From Fasciola hepatica (taxonomy: Eukaryota; Platyhelminthes; Trematoda; Plagiorchiida; Fasciolidae), in contig CANUEZ040000020.1 of the NCBI GenBank assembly GCA_948099385.1, positions 2,574,501-2,638,500 of the forward strand: DNA of 64,000 nucleotides, in the 5' to 3' direction. The notes beneath the pieces were generated by a model that was not told where the DNA came from, did no database searches, and saw only the letters and a program-made list of their open reading frames with translations. Both the position numbers and the translations under genes were made by a program. Below are positions 14,698-48,858 of the stretch, one piece after another; the first letter of the stretch is position 1; the number at the start of each line of letters is the position of its first letter.

Positions 14698-14710
14698 CAA
14701 ACTATGAGGA
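14698..14710. repeat. 13-bp target-site duplication, left copy
   Basis: caaactatgagga occurs here and again at 15,463-15,475, exactly bracketing the palindromic insertion. Removing the insertion and one copy restores a continuous CR1 RT reading across the site. Confidence 0.85.
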
Positions 14711-14942
14711 ACAAGAAACAACCTTTCTCCGTTACAAATTTGAAAACAGAAGTCAAAAACATAGATTGCACGATGTATCCTGGATCATTTGGCTGCATCT
14801 TTACAAAGTGCATACTGCAGTCGAAGTGATTATTTTTATAGCAAAATAAATGAACGAAATGTTTATAAACAAAGGCAAAATCACATGACGCACACATTCA
14901 CACATGTCTATTGGATGATCACACAACAATTATCACACCTCA

Positions 14943-15098
14943 TTACCACGACAATGATAAATTGATCACAAGTTCGCGTTGTTTGCAAAGTTCAGGTTTG
15001 TGTGCACGGATCGACAGGGCCTCCATGTATCTTAATAGTTTGGTGCTGGTGGTCGAGTTGATCACTTTGAACGCTTGACTTGCATTGACGCAATGTTT
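14943..15098 (-). pseudogene. GIY-YIG endonuclease C-terminus, left arm
   Basis: This is the mirror copy of the right-arm frame, on the minus strand. It differs by one silent change and one Tyr-to-Asn change in the VIYSTTSTK segment. It ends at the same stop after LVINLSLSW. The coding piece starts at the palindrome centre, so there is no start codon or GIY motif. Confidence 0.7.
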
Positions 15099-15106
15099 AG
15101 TCTCGT

Positions 15107-15262
15107 AAACATTGCGTCAACGCAAGTCAAGCGTTCAAAGTGATCTACTCGACCACCAGCACCAAACTATTAAGATACATGGAGGCCCTGTCGATCCGTG
15201 CACACAAACCTGAACTTTGCAAACAACGCGAACTTGTGATCAATTTATCATTGTCGTGGTAA
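15107..15262 (+). pseudogene. GIY-YIG endonuclease C-terminus, right arm
   Basis: The open frame reads KHCVNASQAFKVIYSTTSTK, LLRYMEALSIRAHKPELCK and QRELVINLSLSW, then stop. The pattern (F-K/S-V-Y, RILR-x-EAL-IR, KPxLC-QKELV-x-L-L-W, stop) is the typical end of GIY-YIG endonuclease domains carried by fluke Penelope-like or related retroelements. It is truncated upstream at the centre of the palindrome. Confidence 0.7.
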
Positions 15263-15462
15263 TGAGGTGTGATAATTGTTGTGTGATCATCCAATAGACA
15301 TGTGTGAATGTGTGCGTCATGTGATTTTGCCTTTGTTTATAAACATTTCGTTCATTTATTTTGCTATAAAAATAATCACTTCGACTGCAGTATGCACTTT
15401 GTAAAGATGCAGCCAAATGATCCAGGATACATCGTGCAATCTATGTTTTTGACTTCTGTTTT

Positions 15463-15475
15463 CAAACTATGAGGA
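15463..15475. repeat. 13-bp target-site duplication, right copy
   Basis: This is the second copy of caaactatgagga. It partly overlaps the last four bases of the palindromic pairing (to 15,466). See the left copy at 14,698. Confidence 0.85.
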
Positions 15476-21378: not shown

Positions 21379-22639
21379 TCATCACGTGCTTAGAGGAACG
21401 AGTGCGCTCGTGTTTAATACCAAACAATGGCTGACTTTCACCTGCTTGTCATTGTGTGTATAGATCAGAAAAAAGGCTGTTACTCAGGACCTGAATTGAG
21501 CACGTCGCTGGTTTATAAACTTTCATAATACGCCTCTGGCAACAGTAGAACTCATTCTTTCTGTGCAATGCATTTCATCACACTGATTGTTTAAAATACG
21601 ATGAAATTGCTGATCAAATAAGCCTTACGAAAGCATGGCAGTCGACTGTAATTCATAGAGTAATCGAACAGCAGTCTTTGTCATTTCTCGTTGAATGCCA
21701 CAAATGAGACGGACTGTATGAATTTACCGAACACTTTTTTCTGAAGATGTCATTTGTAATTTAGAAAGGCTCACTGAGTTGAAAGTGTAACTGGCAGTTA
21801 CTCTGATTACTTGGCTCTTGGTGCACGTCTATTCAGGTGCATCATTTGGCACTAATGATCTCTGACAGGCTAGATGCTTAACCTAACGTGGGTGACGTTT
21901 TCTCCCAAGTAATTGGACTGTGGTTGGCTCGTGTCATGTAACACGGTTTGCCGCAATATGCTTGCACAGGACTATTGATAATCAAGTAAGTCTAGGTTAT
22001 AGCATTATTGGTAATTTTGCCTAATAGCGTCGTCAGTGAAGGCAAAGATTTTAGTCATATTATGTTAAAAAGTGTCAATGTTATCTATTGGTTTATTCAC
22101 TTCGTTCGAATGTTTACAAAGATGCCAGAAAATTATAACAAAATATCAACGGCTTTCTAATGCACATGAAGTACGGTAGACCAAAAACTACCCATGCTTG
22201 AATGTTCCTCGATAATTAGTGCTCAAAATGAGGGCAAATGAAGTAGAATTTTACTACCATCAAGGACCAGAATTACTGAATGAAAGTAATTTCCCTGCTA
22301 AGTGCATAGACATCAAATTTCAGTCAATGGAAAAATTCGTATTGCCCCGTCACTTTCATTCACTTTAACACTGAAAAGTAGTGTGATAACTACTGGCAAT
22401 TTTCTCCGAATATCTTCTTTCAGTGTAAGTTGATTTCCTAGAAGATCAAGGATTCACTAAATTTAAGGTCAACTAACAACCTCTGTTGAATGAAATTGCT
22501 GTAAATTACATTTAATGTTTGTTCAGCGCGACTGACAGATGTGCATAAAACTGATTCACGCAGTTTCAAAAAATGCTGGACGGCTTATTTGTGGGAGCCG
22601 AAGTACAACGAAGGACACTGTATCATGTATTGTATAAGT
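21375..22639. other. intron 5, no feature seen
   Basis: AT-rich non-coding sequence without recognisable elements. Confidence 0.5.
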
Positions 22640-22850
22640 TCAACAAACAGTTGAGAGCTAACCCGGATAGTTTTGTAGTTAATGTGTTCGACTCAGTCGT
22701 TCACCCCGGATTCGAGTCCCCGTTGGGGCTCGATGGATATGCACGGTTGATGATTCCTTACAAGGATAAAACAGCTGTACAGTTTTTGCATGGTTTTCGG
22801 TAGTTTGAACATTCACACTGCATGATGAATCATTATATTTTTGATACCTG
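22640..22850 (+). mobile_element. dispersed repeat with B-box-like motif, copy a
   Basis: It contains ggattcgagtccccg (B-box-like) at about 22,708 and shares its 3' part (atggttttcggt-gtttgaac, then cattcaca-tg-atgatgaatcat) with 41,530-41,575. The order (tRNA-like head, then shared tail) suggests a SINE, but an A box is not clear. Confidence 0.45.
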
Positions 22851-23039
22851 GTAATAATATTAGCATTATTTGAAGAACACACTGGTGAACAAACTCTTTT
22901 TCATTGATCCATACTCATGCCATTACATCACATTTTATTGCAGCAAGTTAGGAGGTTGGACCAATTAGACCGAAGGCGGAAGTGATAGAGATTAATGGTG
23001 GAAAAGCGGAAAGGAAAATTGTAATTCAGGCTCAACTGA

Positions 23040-27368: not shown

Positions 27369-28147
27369 TCGGTGGTCCAAAGATCTCCGGGGAGCGCTCA
27401 ATTTCGCGGGTGTTTACGGTAACCCTTCCAGAGCACTCCAGGGGTTTTTCATATTCCCGTGCTTTATCCCACTCTATCCTGTTTGCCAGTGGCTTTTGCA
27501 CTACCACCCAAAATCCCGTCCGAGCATTCACCGACAATGTTCCTCATCACACCATTACCTCATTGTTTCGCCGTCCTGTGTGCTTGTGTGCACTTGGATT
27601 TGAACACCATCGTTGTCTGGCGAGCGAAAAATAAAGTCCTTCCAGTGATTCCAAGAACTGTAAAATAAGTGCTCCCCGAAAGATTAAATCGTTTATCCTG
27701 GATCTTTATTTTTATACGGGTTGGCTTCATCCCACTTCTTCTTTGCTACTTATAGTCCTCCAATTTTATTCAGTCCCATCTTGTTCACCATATCTCGGAG
27801 ATCGCCTATCGTGCCTCAAAGCAAATCTGTTGAATATTTAGCTCACAAAACTAGTTTTTTTCCCTTCCATTGTTGTAAACTGTGTTAATCTCATTTTGAA
27901 TCGTGAGGAGCGTGCATGGACGAAGAGTCCGTTTGCAAAATCACAAGGTGATTCGTGAAAAACCAGCTGTAGAGCACCCAAGTATGGGATTGATTTGGTA
28001 GGACAATACCGGGTACATATAACTGAAGATCCGCTATAACCGCAAAACTAGTCGTGTGCTTACGGGGAAATTTTGTCGTGACATCCATGTGCAATACTAC
28101 TTATACCGAAAATCACCGTTCCTTCTCAGAACCGCAAACAACCTACC
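27369..28147. other. intron 6, no feature seen
   Basis: Two overlapping plus frames near 27,410-27,670 are open but motif-free and unsupported by splice phase. Otherwise unremarkable. Confidence 0.45.
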
Positions 28148-28238
28148 ATTTTTCTTTTTTTTCGTTTGATTGACTGTCATTTTGGACTCCACGTTTCACG
28201 CGCAAACCTCAGGTCATCCGACCAACCTGCACTCGGAA

Positions 28239-28283
28239 GCACCAGACTCGAGTTTCGCTCTTGTTAGAGCTCATCAGTGGTGC
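28239..28283 (-). ncRNA. hammerhead ribozyme, short stem III
   Basis: All conserved core elements are present on the minus strand. Stem I is GCACCA paired with UGGUGC (6 bp, perfect). The core CUGAUGA is followed by stem II GCUC-UAACAA-GAGC (4 bp, 6-nt loop), then GAAA. Stem III is the self-complementary ACUCGAGU, followed by the cleavage-site C (GUC). Stem III is so short that it can scarcely form a hairpin. Such minimal type-I hammerheads are known from newt satellite DNA, Penelope elements and retrozymes, often acting as dimers. Self-cleavage is inferred, not tested. Confidence 0.85.
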
Positions 28284-28287
28284 ATAT

Positions 28288-28364
28288 CCTCCGCCACACC
28301 CAGGGTTTGAACCCGGGCCCTCCCATCTCGAAGGCGTGTGATACCACTGCGCCACCCCGCTCCC
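28288..28364 (-). promoter_or_regulatory. tRNA-like Pol III promoter (A and B boxes)
   Basis: The minus strand reads gggagcggggtggcgcagtg then gtatcac (A-box TGGCGCAGTGG) and ccgggttcaaaccctgg (B-box in a 5-bp T-stem with a TTCAAAC loop). The T arm folds well; the anticodon arm is degenerate. It lies immediately 5' of the hammerhead, so a Pol III transcript from here would include the ribozyme. Confidence 0.7.
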
Positions 28365-28560
28365 GTTCGAGCTGATCCGAATCACCAAGTTAAGCTCGTA
28401 CAGATGTCGACCTCTATGACAGCCAGAATTGCCCGACAGCTTTCAAATGGAGACACGGTTCCGGACCTAGTTAACTCCAAGCGAATGTATCCCACCGATC
28501 AGGTCTTCTCCACAGGATGAGGGCAACGGACCCACATTTTTAAACCTGCTTCGCGTTTTT

Positions 28561-28710
28561 TGGTACATATATCACGCAATTACTCGCGAGAAGTGTGGGA
28601 TTGTTTAATTTTCGTTTCATTGACTGTCCTTTTGGACTCCACGTTTCACGCGCAAACGAAAATTAAACAATCCTACACTACTCGCAAGTAATTGCGTGAT
28701 ATATGTACCA
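28561..28710. repeat. 150-bp hairpin with SINE segment as loop
   Basis: Arms 28,561-28,617 and 28,654-28,710 (57 bp each, about 3 mismatches) begin and end with tggtacatatatcacgcaat and its complement. The 36-nt loop and inner arm (tgactgtccttttggactcc and acgtttcacgcg) match the 3' segment of the hammerhead SINE at 28,163-28,207 with one or two changes. No obvious target duplication was seen. Confidence 0.85.
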
Positions 28711-29338
28711 TTTTTTTCTCACTTTTGAATAACCTCTCCCAAGAAAAGCATCAGTAAAGTGCGTTTAGTATAGATGGTTGCCCCACCCCTATTTTAAAGC
28801 AATTCGCTTAGACAATGTGAGTTTACCGGGAAGATATAAATACACCATCTTGCGTGGTTGAGGAAAGGAGCAACGAAAGCCATTCGAAGCTCCTTTGTCG
28901 ACACGGGACATTCAGTGGATATCGATATGCCATCTACCGAGCTGTGATCAGTCTTTCGAATCACGTCAGAAGAGTCATTTCGCATATACCTCCGAGACAG
29001 TGGCCATGTGCATCCACCACCTGTAACTTTACATGGAAAATTGGCTTCCCCATGATCGGAAGCTGCTATGACTATGAAGTACGACCTAGTCAAAGGCCTG
29101 ATGAGCAGCCTAATCGCTTACAAAAGAATGCCATCATACCGACAACGAGATTCAGATTTAACCTACATCACGGAACATTTACCCTCCTCACACTTTTACC
29201 TTTACATGTAGGAGTAACTGTTTACATCACTGGCTTCATCCGTCTTTTCAACTGATCTAACTTTTCTACGGTATGTCACATTTATTCTCTTATTATAAGA
29301 AGACCATGAAACTTACTGTCACGTATCTAATATCAAAG
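28711..29338. other. end of intron 6
   Basis: Opposed open frames at 28,794-29,093 (minus) and 28,854-29,255 (plus) are motif-free. Sequence ends in tatcaaag before exon 7. Confidence 0.45.
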
Positions 29339-34913: not shown

Positions 34914-34990
34914 GCCGCGATTGCTCAGCTGGTAGGTCATCTGCCCGGTAATCGGAAGATCACTGGTTTGATTCCGGTTTGCGGAGCCGA
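34914..34990 (+). repeat. tRNA-like sequence (SINE head, another family)
   Basis: gccgcgattgctcagctggt (A box GCTCAGCTGGT) and actggtttgattccggttt (B box) are spaced as in a tRNA, with a poor anticodon arm. No CCA end or good acceptor stem, so I take it as a SINE head rather than a working tRNA gene. Confidence 0.6.
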
Positions 34991-36000
34991 AATTTCGGGT
35001 GCAAAAATGCGAACGGATTTCTCATTACTTACATCCTTCTGGCTCCTCACGTTAACAATCAATTCTACAAATAGTATTTTTATTACGAAGAATACCGAAG
35101 AGCGAACGAGCGTTTTAATTGTTACATAATCTTTTGCATGCGCATCATGTGATAACAGTGCATCTGATTGACTATAAGCTGGGTTAGGGGTCATTCTTAC
35201 AATGGGTAGGGTGGATTTTTTCAGTTAGTATCCTGACGAAGATTCGCCTCGCCTGAGATTCGGAAGTGCCTAGACTGGTCGTCTTTGTGCACGCAGATCC
35301 CATCTTTTTAGACGTATAGCGATTCTCCTTAGTCGTCGCCAGGGACGGAGTCGGATCACCTCTGATTGGTTGGGCAGAGAGACAATACACAACGCTGAAT
35401 GAGTCATTGGGATCGGTCTAATGACTGCTATTGAGTGTAGGTTATCGGGGATAGGCCTGTCGTTTTCGTCTGTCTTACCATGGTGCAGTCACTTCGGGTG
35501 ATGGTCGTTGAGATAGTCGGCTGGTCATCCGACATGCATAGAATGCTCCACAAATGCCCTTAAACGAATGGATAATCATGGATGAGGTCAGATAAGGCAA
35601 CTTATCTCTCCATTGAAAAATAGATCAACCCAGCCCACGGCCAGAAAAATGCACTATTGTCACTTATGTGACCTATAAGAGCAAGATTGGGATTCAACAA
35701 AAACAACTGACCGCTCTCCAGTGCTACTGTATTCTAATATGACGATGAGATCATTTCAGATATTGGTAATGCAGTCCAACTCGTCGCAAAACGTCACCTC
35801 AGGAAGAAGAAGGTCAAAATAACGGATTAATTCATACGTTTGTTCCCATTTTGTTAGGATAAAATCGATCAACTAGCAATTGTTTGCTCGAAAGTCGATC
35901 ATTGCAGCACACTATCATTGCTCAGGTCAAACAGAAACTCACGGTCCGATATTATATCTTCCAACGGTGCGTAACATTTTCGAAGTGACCTAAATGTTAA
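34991..36000. other. intron, no feature seen
   Basis: A minus frame at 35,184-35,390 has no recognised domain. The flanking sequence may include the body of the SINE at 34,914. Confidence 0.45.
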
Positions 36001-36094
36001 ACGCCTCTGACTCTGGCAGGATTCGAACCCACATGTGGTTGCCACGGAGGCTTCAGTACCACGTGTGCTCCACCAGCTGAGCTACGAGACCAGG
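36001..36094 (-). repeat. tRNA-derived SINE, family 3, copy a
   Basis: The minus strand reads tctcgtagctcagctggtgg (A box) and tgtgggttcgaatcctgcc (B box), followed by gaggcgtttaacatttaggt. This downstream stretch matches the plus copy at 36,368-36,400 (gacgtttaacatttgggtcg), so the two are inverted relatives. Confidence 0.7.
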
Positions 36095-36284: not shown

Positions 36285-36410
36285 GTTAGAAGCTCCTCGG
36301 CGTGGCGGAGGACACGCGGCACTAAAGCGTGGGTAGAGACTGCGTGGGTTCAATTACAGCCAGGGGCAAAGACGTTTAACATTTGGGTCGCTTCAAAAAT
36401 CTATCCAATT
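36285..36410 (+). repeat. tRNA-derived SINE, family 3, decayed copy b
   Basis: agctcctcggcgtggcggag aligns with the A-box region of copy a, tgcgtgggttcaattacagc with its B box, and gacgtttaacatttgggtcg with its body. It is inverted relative to copy a, about 190 bp away. Confidence 0.6.
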
Positions 36411-40959: not shown

Positions 40960-41439
40960 GTAAGTCTTCGTTTTCTTTACAATGTAACATATAATCGTAT
41001 TTATGTGACTGTCAACTGTCCGATGCACTCTCCATAAAGATATCGACCGTCCTGAGAATAATAAATGCAACCGAATGATCTCGACTTCCGTACCTTCGCA
41101 GTGGTTACTAGTGTCTACCAAATGCAGCTCTTTTGTGAGAACTAACCCTTTACTGTGAAACGTTTACTTGGAAATTGACTGAAATAAAAACAAACTTATC
41201 ACAAAAACTACTACTATTAGGACTTCATATTTTGATTGCACGCCTAGTAAAGAGTATGCTTCTCAAGAGGTAAAAACCATTAACGAGCAATCCCATTGAA
41301 CCGTCGGGAAAAATCAGCAACCAGATCGCTGTGACTCAGAATGGAGACCCGCTTGATTGTCCGTTGTGTCTGTCAGACTTACGAGCTAGTGAAACGATAT
41401 CGGAACAGCCTCCCCCCCCCACTCCATAATAAAAGGCTT

Positions 41440-41590
41440 TGATGGAGTTCAAACCTTGTGTCGCAGTTTAAGTAGCCTGTGATGCATACCCAACCCAACA
41501 CACTAGCGATCCACACAATAGAAATTCGCCATGATTTTCGGTGGTTTGAACGTTCACATTGTATGATGAATCATACGCAAAAATCTAACC
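41440..41590 (+). repeat. dispersed repeat with B-box-like motif, copy b
   Basis: gatggagttcaaaccttgtg (B-box-like) precedes atgattttcggtggtttgaa and cgttcacattgtatgatgaa, which match 22,790-22,840. It lies in the intron between exons 13 and 14, which also has a C9-10 run near 41,414. Confidence 0.5.
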
Positions 41591-41703
41591 TTCTACCACT
41601 CAGACTGAATTTTCTATACAACAATAGACGTTTTCATACTGACTACCCGTTCCATTTGTATTTCACTTATAAACGATGTTTCTTTCGCTTACTTTTTTCC
41701 CAG

Positions 41704-46209: not shown

Positions 46210-46756
46210 TCGGTGGAAAATTATAAGCCGATGTTTCGGTTACCGTGGGCAACCTTTCTCAGGGCAGTTTTACAATCAGATGACTGAAGAATCTGCAACC
46301 AGTCAACAATACGTGTGTGTGTGTGTGTGTGTGTGTGTGGTAGTTCGTTCGTCGATTAGATTGGTCGAATTTTAGTCACACCGATTCCCATTATCCGAGG
46401 CCGTGGTGACGAGGCCAAATGTCGATGTGACCTTTGGGCTGCTTATGTGTTAGTGATGTCAGTGCGGTCCAAATTCCGGGGCTCTCTGACCCATCATTTC
46501 GGTTGACGCATGCAGGGTGGGTGCTAATTGCCAGAGCTTCGGCATAAAAACGCTCAGTGCATGTTTTCAGTCCGTGTTTGAGGATTTTTATGTGCCCCTC
46601 GGCTATGGCGTGAACAGCGATCGCTGAATCCCGCTCCAGTTTCGCTAAGGCTGTCATGTTGGAGGACTTGTATTTATCTTTTCTTTTGTGTTCCATTAAT
46701 CTAGTCTTAAGTTGTCTAGATGTTTGTGCAACCTCAAAGAAAAACTTCGAAAACAA
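46210..46756 (-). pseudogene. Penelope-like GIY-YIG domain and 3' UTR
   Basis: The minus strand reads FFEVAQTSRQLKTRLMEHKR (GIY-YIG core; the YIG/YVG is changed to VAQ), SNMTALAKLERDSAIAVHAI, EGHIKILKHGLKTCTERFYA and EALAISTHP, and then stops. A (TG)n tract at 46,314-46,338 follows. A 3' motif tgcccacggtaaccgaaaca (46,221-46,250) is of the type found after such ORFs. It is head-to-head with the RT fragment to its right. Confidence 0.72.
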
Positions 46757-47680
46757 TTATGGTTTGGTCTGGCATCCAAAACGAATAGGCCTGGGAGACT
46801 TTATGGGTTACCAAAGACCCATAAACCAAACAGACCTATTCGCCTGATTGGAGACTACACACCATGTGGAAACTACAGGTTAACAAATATCTCAGTTCTC
46901 TGTTAAAACCGTATCAAAAATGGTGGTAAGTCACATTGATGACGCTTTCGAGTTGGTCCGTAATGTAATAAAACATTGAACTAACGAGTGATGCCGTTGC
47001 AGTGAGCTTTGATGTAATCTCGTTATATACAAGTATCCCCATTAAAGACAGCCTAGATTATTTATATTTCTTATTGACCTCTGATGCTTCCTTAGAAACC
47101 CGGTGTCCACTATCACCTTCTGAAATTATTACTGGTTTAGATCTCTGTCATACTTCAACTTACTTCACCTTCAAACAAGAGCTATACAGACAAACCGATG
47201 GTGAGGCCATGAGACCTTCTGTCTCCCAGTTGCTGACACTCTTTTTCTACATTCAATCGAATCCAAAGCCTTAACTGCTTCCAAAACTCCCCCACGTTTA
47301 TATGTGAAATATATGTTGACGAAAGTTTTGTAGTTATCAATTCCAAAAAAAGGATGAATTCCTTCAATGCCTTAATGAGCAATGCAACTCTAGTAACTCT
47401 ACGATTGAGACAGAAAATACTGACAGAGTATTAAGTTTTCTAGACTGCCGTCTGAAAGTGAATGACTCCCAAAAAATCACCACCGGTATTCATCGAGAAC
47501 CAACATACTCGGATAAATATTTACATTTCGATTCAGCTCACCCTAATTGCGTAAAACGAACGCCTATCTCGTCGTTAGCTAACAGAGTTGAAAAACTCTG
47601 TAATGAGGATATCAATCGTGAAGAACAAATGAGACGCTCAAGCCAAGTCCTTCGCGACAGTCACTACCCGCGTCACACGC
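46735..47680 (+). pseudogene. Penelope-like reverse transcriptase fragment
   Basis: The frames read ASKTNRPGRLYGLPKTHKPN (the PLE-specific YGLPKxHK block) near 46,765, SHIDDAFELVRNVIK near 46,930, then VSFDVISLYTSIPIKDSL near 47,005. TYFTFKQELYRQTDGEAM follows near 47,160, YVDESFVVINSKK near 47,312 (catalytic YVDD changed to YVDE), and LSFLDCRLKVNDSQKITTGI near 47,430. At least three frameshifts occur. The last part (from 47,404) runs open into the LINE RT. Confidence 0.75.
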
Positions 47681-48858
47681 ACCGCCGACCAACAATAATG
47701 ATTTTCTTAGACCTGAAAGGCGCCTTCGATTCAGTTGATCGAACATCGCTTTTCAGTACTCTTCATCGAAAAGGTATGCCCCAGAAGTTCGTGAACCTAA
47801 TGAGATCATTGTATTCTCATACTTCTGGCCGCGTAAGGGTTTACGGTGAACTATCCGGTCGGTTCGAAACGACCAGTGGTGTTCGGCAGGGATGCCCTTT
47901 GTCTCCATTCCTTTTTAACTTCGTCATGGACGAAATAATGGAGAGTGCGCTGCAAAATCTTCAGGATGTAGGCGTCGAACTAGGAGATAGTGAAAAGCTA
48001 TGTGACCTGGATTACGCAGACGACGTTGTCTGCTTGTTCGAATCCACGGAACATGCTCAGCGTGCACTAGATAATCTCGCAAGAGCTGTAGCTCCATTCG
48101 GTATGCGTATTGCACCTTCAAAGTGCAAGATGATGTTACAAGACTGGACGTCAACGATTCCGAGCTTGATGCTCGACGGGGAGGTGCTGGCAGTTGTCGA
48201 TCACTTCACCTACCTCGGTAGCTGCGTGACGACAGATGGTAGCACAGTAGTAGAGGTGAGCAAGCGGATATCCAAGGCTCGAGCGGCGTACGCTGGACTG
48301 AAACACTTGTGGCGCCGATCCGATATTTCACTGAAGTTGAAAGGTCGGGTGTACTGTGCCGCAGTGCGTTCAGTTTTGTTGTATGGTTGCGAAACTTGGA
48401 GTCTGCGTGCAGAAGATATTCGTCGTCTTGAGGTTTTCGACCATCGATGTTTACGTAGTATCGCTAGGATTGGGTGGAATAGCCGAGTAAGCAACGATGA
48501 GGTAAGAAAGCGAGTATTGGGTACTAATTCAGAGAACGTTTTGTCACAGCGTATCCAACTTAGTAGACTTCGTTGGTTGGGACACGTGTTACGTATGGCA
48601 AACACACGTCTACCGTACCGTGTCCTATTCTCCGCCCCTCCTAGGGAGTGGAAGAGACCACGTGGAGGTCAACAGATGACGTGGCAGCGAGGAATGAGGA
48701 GATGTACAGCAGACTTAGGAAAAGTAGGTGCTTCACGTCTTCGTGGTTGGGGTCCAAAAGATCCGTCCACCAGTTGGCTGGAGACACTGAAGGATATGGC
48801 TGCGAACCGCGAACAGTGGAGATCGTGTTGTCACTTTCTATCGAATCAGAATGTTTGA
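47458..48858 (+). CDS. 466-codon chimeric ORF: PLE RT tail fused to LINE RT
   Basis: Residues 1 to about 72 are the end of the PLE RT (IHREPTYSDKYLHFDSAHP, VEKLCNEDI, VLRDSHYPRH). From about residue 76 the frame is a LINE RT: IFLDLKGAFDSVDRT (motif A), TSGVRQGCPLSPFLFNFVMD, LDYADDVVCLFE (YADD at residues 186-189, codons 48,013-48,024), then RVYCAAVRSVLLYGCETW and RLRWLGHVLRM near 376. The join near 47,675-47,690 is in frame. It is the least decayed RT in the window, but it lacks the LINE endonuclease and RT fingers, so activity is unlikely. Confidence 0.75.
   Translation: MNDSQKITTGIHREPTYSDKYLHFDSAHPNCVKRTPISSLANRVEKLCNEDINREEQMRRSSQVLRDSHYPRHTHRRPTIMIFLDLKGAFDSVDRTSLFSTLHRKGMPQKFVNLMRSLYSHTSGRVRVYGELSGRFETTSGVRQGCPLSPFLFNFVMDEIMESALQNLQDVGVELGDSEKLCDLDYADDVVCLFESTEHAQRALDNLARAVAPFGMRIAPSKCKMMLQDWTSTIPSLMLDGEVLAVVDHFTYLGSCVTTDGSTVVEVSKRISKARAAYAGLKHLWRRSDISLKLKGRVYCAAVRSVLLYGCETWSLRAEDIRRLEVFDHRCLRSIARIGWNSRVSNDEVRKRVLGTNSENVLSQRIQLSRLRWLGHVLRMANTRLPYRVLFSAPPREWKRPRGGQQMTWQRGMRRCTADLGKVGASRLRGWGPKDPSTSWLETLKDMAANREQWRSCCHFLSNQNV

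Follow-up and report, generated by a model that had tools for sequence, protein, structure and literature searches.

We read the repeat described here, on the minus strand of a 64,000-nt stretch of fluke DNA (hereafter the window), as a dispersed copy of a 451-bp non-coding tandem repeat with a predicted Pol III promoter and a predicted self-cleaving type I hammerhead ribozyme, which likely inserts by means of the reverse transcriptase (RT) and GIY-YIG endonuclease of a Penelope-like element (PLE). We give this reading as a whole a probability of about three in four. The strongest single fact behind it is that inverted copies of the repeat end at two different fixed sites, one at each end, together with the target duplications that flank them. 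The fluke setting, which the initial annotation had recognized, is well supported, because the animal names among 120 listed relatives (of 1,321 matches) of the 512-aa RT frame in the window are all those of trematodes (Schistosoma, Dicrocoelium, Opisthorchis, Paragonimus, Trichobilharzia and Heterobilharzia among the relatives listed); many of the 120 rows are nameless and a few carry a bacterial label.

Structure of the insertion and of its repeat unit

The window copy is a 552-nt insertion at 28154-28705, which lies between two exact copies of AAAAATGGTA and starts with an inverted segment. The initial annotation had placed a SINE at 28148-28364, with A and B boxes, a minimal hammerhead and an A-rich tail; the boxes and the hammerhead were confirmed on the minus strand, whereas the boundaries proved too small, the A-rich tail did not hold and the word "minimal" became doubtful. 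The first sign of wrong boundaries was that segment 28159-28207 is repeated at 28609-28657 (96% over 49 nt), inside a 150-nt palindrome, and this second copy is the only match of the element's tail within the window. In unit numbering from GTTTGCGCG, the boxes fall at 303 (A) and 346 (B), the hammerhead occupies 376-420 and cleavage is predicted after 414. The features are as follows, T1 and T2 being the two end sites treated below.

28706-28715, minus strand: target-site duplication, first copy (AAAAATGGTA, minus-strand reading); exact 10-nt match to 28144-28153, with 0/40 displaced controls as long
28654-28705, minus strand: inverted 5' segment, the reverse complement of unit positions ~45-92, with its outer end at T2
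28561-28710, no strand: 150-nt palindrome, the inverted segment opposite the T1-T2 region of the unit; takes in 5 nt of the duplication
28208-28657, minus strand: full repeat unit, positions 1-451; 96.5% identity to the array unit; 28654-28657 overlap the inverted segment
28344-28354, minus strand: A-box match TGGCGCAGTGG, predicted internal Pol III promoter; same match in the array unit
28303-28313, minus strand: B-box match GGTTCAAACCC, predicted; same match in the array unit
28235-28289, minus strand: hammerhead with outer GGA/UCC stem I extension and 5' bulge, alternative pairing CGGAG/UUCCG; from the fold, the HH9 alignment and the pair count
28239-28283, minus strand: type I hammerhead ribozyme; RF00163 at 35.3 bits and covariation with family 2
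28159-28207, minus strand: start of the next unit, positions 1-49, to site T1; ends 86 nt downstream of the predicted cleavage
28154-28158, minus strand: five extra bases AAAAG, from T1 to the duplication
28144-28153, minus strand: target-site duplication, second copy
22705-22789, plus strand: decayed family-2 copy, a B-box-like part and a hammerhead with broken core; alignment score 42

The inverted 5' segment was delimited by its 57-nt arms (95% complementary), by alignment to the unit and by the end at 92 after correction for the target-site duplication. The palindrome at 28561-28710 belongs to the element, because its arms are an inverted piece of the unit, and a MITE at this position was rejected on the same ground. 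More generally, a foldback or MITE-like DNA element, with the palindrome as a transposon that captured a SINE tail, would account for the 95% complementary arms and for the flanking duplications. Both arms, however, consist of repeat-unit sequence, in opposite orientations, and the inversion point varies among copies, and we regard such an origin as extremely improbable.

The A and B boxes were matched to the A-box and B-box consensus sequences. No tRNA was found by ARAGORN, thus the label "tRNA-like" rests on the two boxes and on the copies. Array units continue from AAACGAAAA into TTAAACAATCC, i.e., an A tail is not encoded by the element; the A-rich stretch of the window copy consists of the AAACGAAAA site, the five extra bases and the target duplication. 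As far as the arrays and the window show, the element thus differs from a tRNA-derived SINE, whose 3' tail is A-rich or derived from a LINE, and resembles one in the internal A and B boxes present in both families. A rod-like circular RNA was rejected, since shuffled sequences fold as well as the circular unit does (-136.5 for the unit vs. -140.0 ± 9.9), and so was Pol III readthrough argued from a missing TTTT, because chance alone readily explains its absence (P = 0.43); in family 2 the motif occurs once.

The element is the unit of 451-bp tandem arrays and is also dispersed through the genome, as was directly observed for the unit, the arrays and the copy number. In the 1.50-Gb assembly (656 contigs), a 33-nt ribozyme core with at most two mismatches gave 4,152 matches (1908 + 2244), and the reversed-pattern control gave 0. 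A search with 28100-28400 (40 of 726 candidates scored) returned at least 41 matches, mostly at 98% over the first 242 nt, and many of the matches listed are spaced 451 bp apart. One array (L009), bounded by assembly gaps, has a 451-bp period and 16.6 copies at 99% according to Tandem Repeats Finder. Pattern scans of IMG/VR for relatives gave 0 hits, and the phage collection gave just two short matches, at chance level.

Other repeats were observed in the window. A near-perfect palindrome at 14700-15475 has 361-nt arms that are 99% complementary with 6 nt between them, is flanked by an exact 11-nt repeat (AACTATGAGGA, at 14700-14710 and 15465-15475) and is 30 nt longer at one end, i.e., it shares the tail-at-one-end layout of the inverted copies treated below; an Rfam hammerhead was not found in it, and it did not clearly match the PLE unit. 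A tRNA-like repeat without a hammerhead forms an inverted pair at 35976-36032 and 36344-36400 (arms 81% complementary, 311 nt apart) and may be another SINE of similar layout. A sub-threshold tRNA match at 34914-34986 on the plus strand (24.6 bits vs. 29) is possibly another tRNA-derived repeat head.

The hammerhead and a second ribozyme family

The hammerhead scores 35.3 bits over the full model (1-45) of Rfam RF00163 (Hammerhead_1), for which the gathering cut-off is 34; E is 4e-05 across the window, and no other hit within the 64 kb reaches the gathering level. Its core is intact, the parts of the ribozyme being GCACCA/UGGUGC, CUGAUGA, GCUC/GAGC, GAAA, ACUCGAGU and GUC, and cleavage is predicted after the GUC on the minus strand, between 28245 and 28244. 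In the fold, stem I can extend beyond the 5' bulge through CGGAG/UUCCG. The model Hammerhead_HH9 (RF02275) aligns over its full length, with its extended and bulged stem I, at 37 bits; since this is below the gathering score of 52, the hammerhead is not an HH9 member. Because of the extension in the fold and in the HH9 alignment, the description of the ribozyme as minimal is not secure.

A decayed relative was recognized in the window at 22705-22789. Its score of 42 to the head and hammerhead was reached by 0/60 and 1/703 Markov-resampled windows, and its core is broken, with UUGAUGA and with AAAA in place of GAAA. No hammerhead was found in Rfam scans of 22600-22900 and 41350-41650, thus the decayed copy rests on alignment and not on the model. 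It was assigned to a family via two loci (L034 and L069), of which L034 contains an intact relative at 28.8 bits, below gathering, and led to a tandem family with a 401-bp unit (family 2; 40 of 562 candidates scored) with places across ~29 kb on contig C67. Family 2 has its own A and B boxes. A 45-nt repeat (89%) occurs at 22789-22833, after the decayed family-2 hammerhead, and at 41530-41574, where there is no recognizable head, and probably represents the family-2 tail.

Between the two families, 6 of the 17 pairs are changed on both sides, with changes in stems I, II and III, a result equaled in 1/500 shuffles in a comparison of three sequences, two of them from one family. Stem III changes from ACUCGAGU to ACAGCUGU in family 2 and is palindromic in both. 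These compensatory changes support both the predicted ribozyme and pairing between two molecules, and the 8-nt palindromic stem III favors a hammerhead acting as a dimer, as the initial annotation had supposed. The use of such stem III palindromes in dimers has been proposed for other hammerheads (PMC3088659).

Furthermore, an Rfam hammerhead search of the genome was made, in which 74 of 288,504 candidates were scored and ten of the 38 listed hits were retrieved. All ten belong to family 1 (the 451-bp family) or family 2, stem III is palindromic in 9/10, and in 9/10 a tRNA-like head lies upstream (by inspection, with an A- or B-box pattern in all nine). Head and hammerhead thus occur together in other copies and the stem pairing covaries rather than decaying at random, the opposite of the first two outcomes that the initial annotation had named as counting against it.

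Insertion ends and target duplications

The ends of family-1 copies were mapped in 30 pattern loci, the first listed of the 4,152 and all on contigs C2 and C3, and in earlier loci from the best-match search, which makes the sample not a random one. Before the ends were counted, 16 clusters truncated by an assembly gap or by the edge of their locus were set aside, as were second entries for a place already included and clusters shorter than 120 nt. Inverted copies make up 18 of the 26 complete clusters, and these dispersed copies share one order, namely an inverted segment, a variable junction and one or more forward units. In 16/18, one end lies at unit position 37-52 (T1) and the other at 86-100 (T2), the two sites being ~42 nt apart; no inverted copy has two like ends (0/18). 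The two remaining loci, L039 (188/78) and L062 (422/101), stayed unassigned and are possible exceptions. If the two sites were picked independently and equally, unlike ends in 16/16 would have a probability of 1.5e-05.

Of the 16 inverted copies whose ends are unlike, 12 lie between exact duplications of 10-14 nt; three others (L045, L061 and L068) are without a duplication of 10 nt, and one (L057) is too near the locus edge for the test. When the first nine inverted copies were compared with 40 displaced positions each, 0/40 were as long for eight of them and 5/40 for L007. Duplications of at least 10 nt were found in 0/8 non-inverted clusters (L041 has one of 8 nt and L063 one of 9 nt), the 3' ends of which are at 53, 47, 52, 47, 51, 100, 37 and 49. 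The inversion junctions of the 16 copies share 1-5 nt in 11 cases and none in 2, and are gapped in 3. The layout of a PLE insertion, i.e., an inverted 5' segment, a tail at one inverted end and a target duplication, is therefore present in family 1, and its ends, inverted segments and duplications are direct observations. In one old copy (79%; L032:6489-6641), the inverted T1-T2 piece is joined straight to the hammerhead and tail, which shows that older copies have the pattern as well.

Family 2 has the same anatomy. Seven loci were mapped, of which L075 is not inverted (AT repeats) and L074 is all array; in the 5/5 inverted copies, counted from the cleavage site, an end at 93-98 is paired with one at 56-68 (39 in L071). 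Exact duplications of 14, 12 and 12 nt flank three of them, and just 7 and 5 nt the other two. The T regions of the two families have ACTACTC and AATTGC in common, and 55/2000 shuffles were as good.

These ends bear on an alternative in which the repeat is a Smα-type SINE of the classical, tRNA-derived kind and is mobilized by a LINE, with the inversions produced by LINE twin priming and the arrays secondary. Such an element is suggested by the A and B boxes, by the LINE-type RT frames in the window and by the term SINE-like used for Smα and Sjα (PMC2770079, in the passages drawn on here). The A tail, however, is not encoded, and both ends of the inverted copies lie on two fixed sites in 16/18. 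LINE twin priming gives one fixed 3' end and a variable internal second site, therefore two fixed ends count against it, and we consider a LINE-moved SINE unlikely. What the initial annotation made of the element is thus upheld in part: the fluke setting, the Smα-like architecture of head and type I hammerhead and the co-occurrence of both in other copies are supported, and the classical SINE with an A tail gives way to a 451-bp array unit whose insertions are inverted and end at two fixed sites.

Satellite DNA with a fossil hammerhead, spreading only through unequal exchange or DNA circles, would fit the long homogeneous arrays (99% in L009, and ~29 kb of family 2 on C67). Nevertheless, dispersed copies carry exact 10-14-nt duplications and fixed ends, compensatory changes separate the families in all three stems, and an identical 55-nt ribozyme region was found in 55 of 72 distinct sampled places, and we hold this explanation to be very unlikely. 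An array (L010) of about seven units has an inverted T2 end, a T1 end and a 12-nt duplication, and reads as one insertion. As the arrays in L010 and L057 themselves bear T1/T2 ends, whole arrays may enter as single events. Array growth could also occur by unequal crossing-over instead of circle copying.

Penelope-like elements and known hammerhead repeats

Under the preferred reading, insertion would depend on PLE enzymes. A frame at 46391-46756 on the minus strand of the window, which we take to be a Penelope-like endonuclease piece, had no hit in Pfam; through its 2,307 candidate relatives in the genome (150 scored), a PLE was reached whose domains are RVT_1 (E = 1.5e-10) and GIY-YIG (9.3e-06). 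Another frame, at 47320-48858 on the plus strand and presumably a Penelope-type RT thumb piece, continues into a LINE-type RT. The genome PLE is inverted in 7 of 10 loci, with ends at unit positions 2748-2752 and 2686-2689 in 7/7 and duplications of 12-16 nt; one of the three non-inverted loci has a 12-nt duplication. PLE unit positions are counted on a sequence trimmed at one insertion end (L029); the duplications agree with the end positions given here. The insertion anatomy of family 1 is thus found both in family 2 and in a PLE of the same genome.

This anatomy agrees with published accounts of endonuclease-bearing PLEs, in the passages drawn on here. Such elements are described as having their 5' pLTR inverted, 31 bp of tail on one inverted end and target-site duplications of 8-10 bp, and trans-mobilization of an unrelated gene between pLTRs has been reported (PMC3846280). 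A PLE protein cuts and extends both strands and begins copying at two adjacent internal sites, which define the tail, and figures in the same source put the PLE start 85-92 nt past the hammerhead cut (PMC11167929). In family 1, T1 lies 86 nt after the predicted cut, by arithmetic on unit positions. The element thus resembles these PLEs in the inverted 5' segment, the tail that makes one end longer, the duplications, the tandem copies (PMC3846280, PMC11167929) and the start site ~86 nt after the predicted cut. It differs in encoding no protein and in its length (451 bp vs. 2752 bp for the examined PLE), and the examined genome PLE in turn has no hammerhead core (no CTGANGA).

The weakest link of the PLE reading is the partner PLE. 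When 19 PLE start regions were compared with the T regions of families 1 and 2, none matched convincingly (best of 38 comparisons equaled in 5/300 shuffles). Free local alignment of the T region to the examined PLE, a young one, was at chance level (875/1000 shuffles). An alignment anchored at T2 was equaled in 4/500 shuffles, yet 46 of 2746 PLE windows did equally well, which makes it suggestive only. Of the 18 PLE start regions retrieved, one (L092) is directly preceded by the decayed head and hammerhead of a family-2 copy; the family-2 piece (L092:26-160 on C135; 77% over 91 nt, E = 1e-14) adjoins the PLE start region, with inverted PLE start sequence separating the two. Because of this inverted piece in between, a hammerhead belonging to the PLE was rejected and the locus was read as a PLE inserted beside a family-2 retrozyme copy; it looks like a nested insertion or a joined product.

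Hammerhead repeats in newts and schistosomes have been known for decades. In the listed titles and abstract beginnings of CC0, CC BY and CC BY-SA papers, no report was found of a T1/T2 insertion signature in a hammerhead SINE or retrozyme. In architecture the element is close to Smα and Sjα of Schistosoma, also trematode repeats with a tRNA-related head, a type I hammerhead and thousands of copies (PMC2770079), and a 335-bp W36.2 element is described as similar to SMalpha (PMC8490949). Compared by description only, the fluke units differ in length (451 and 401 bp) and in the letters of the hammerhead, and the passages on Smα drawn on here mention neither two fixed ends nor an inverted segment nor a link to PLEs (PMC2770079, PMC8490949). 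Metazoan non-LTR retrozymes (Cervera and de la Peña 2020), as far as described in the passages used, are short tandem repeats of ~150-450 bp that carry type I hammerheads and whose target duplications, where they occur, exceed 4 bp; the units of 451 and 401 bp and the 10-14-nt duplications correspond to this description, and PLEs were named as strong candidates for moving them, on the basis of shared type I hammerheads, tandem copies and co-existence (PMC7229834). Unlike these retrozymes as described there, the fluke element has a Pol III-type head, a G+C content of 51.9% in the 451-bp unit where <50% is stated (PMC7229834), and PLE-type insertion ends. The element is accordingly Smα-like and retrozyme-like, and the new part is the insertion evidence on what moves such repeats; it is likely a Smα-like retrozyme with a Pol III head, moved by PLE enzymes.

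We infer transcription, cleavage, circle formation and the use of a PLE enzyme, in steps that would run as follows. Arrays would be transcribed into multimers, whose hammerheads may dimerize via the palindromic stem III and thereby release unit-length RNA, and a host ligase would close the monomers into circles. The PLE enzyme would then nick both target strands, ~12 nt apart, with one strand priming copying at T1 and the other at T2. Copying of the circle over several rounds would give multi-unit insertions, and the two opposed cDNAs would be joined internally, often at a few shared bases. By a bolder version, which we favor by a narrow measure over its being wrong, there is in flukes a "SINE of Penelope", a circular RNA driven by Pol III and processed by its hammerhead, in which only a promoter, a ribozyme and a two-site RT start are left. 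A dimer of the PLE enzyme would copy it in both directions, always one strand per start site, such that one event could yield a multi-unit array.

The "one end each" rule, found in two ribozyme families and one PLE, bears on how PLEs handle the two target strands. If the mechanism is true, PLEs would be what moves animal retrozymes, an agent long sought, and would also give rise directly to ribozyme satellite DNA, and the question of a PLE mover becomes directly testable, namely by whether a PLE protein starts copying at T1 and T2.
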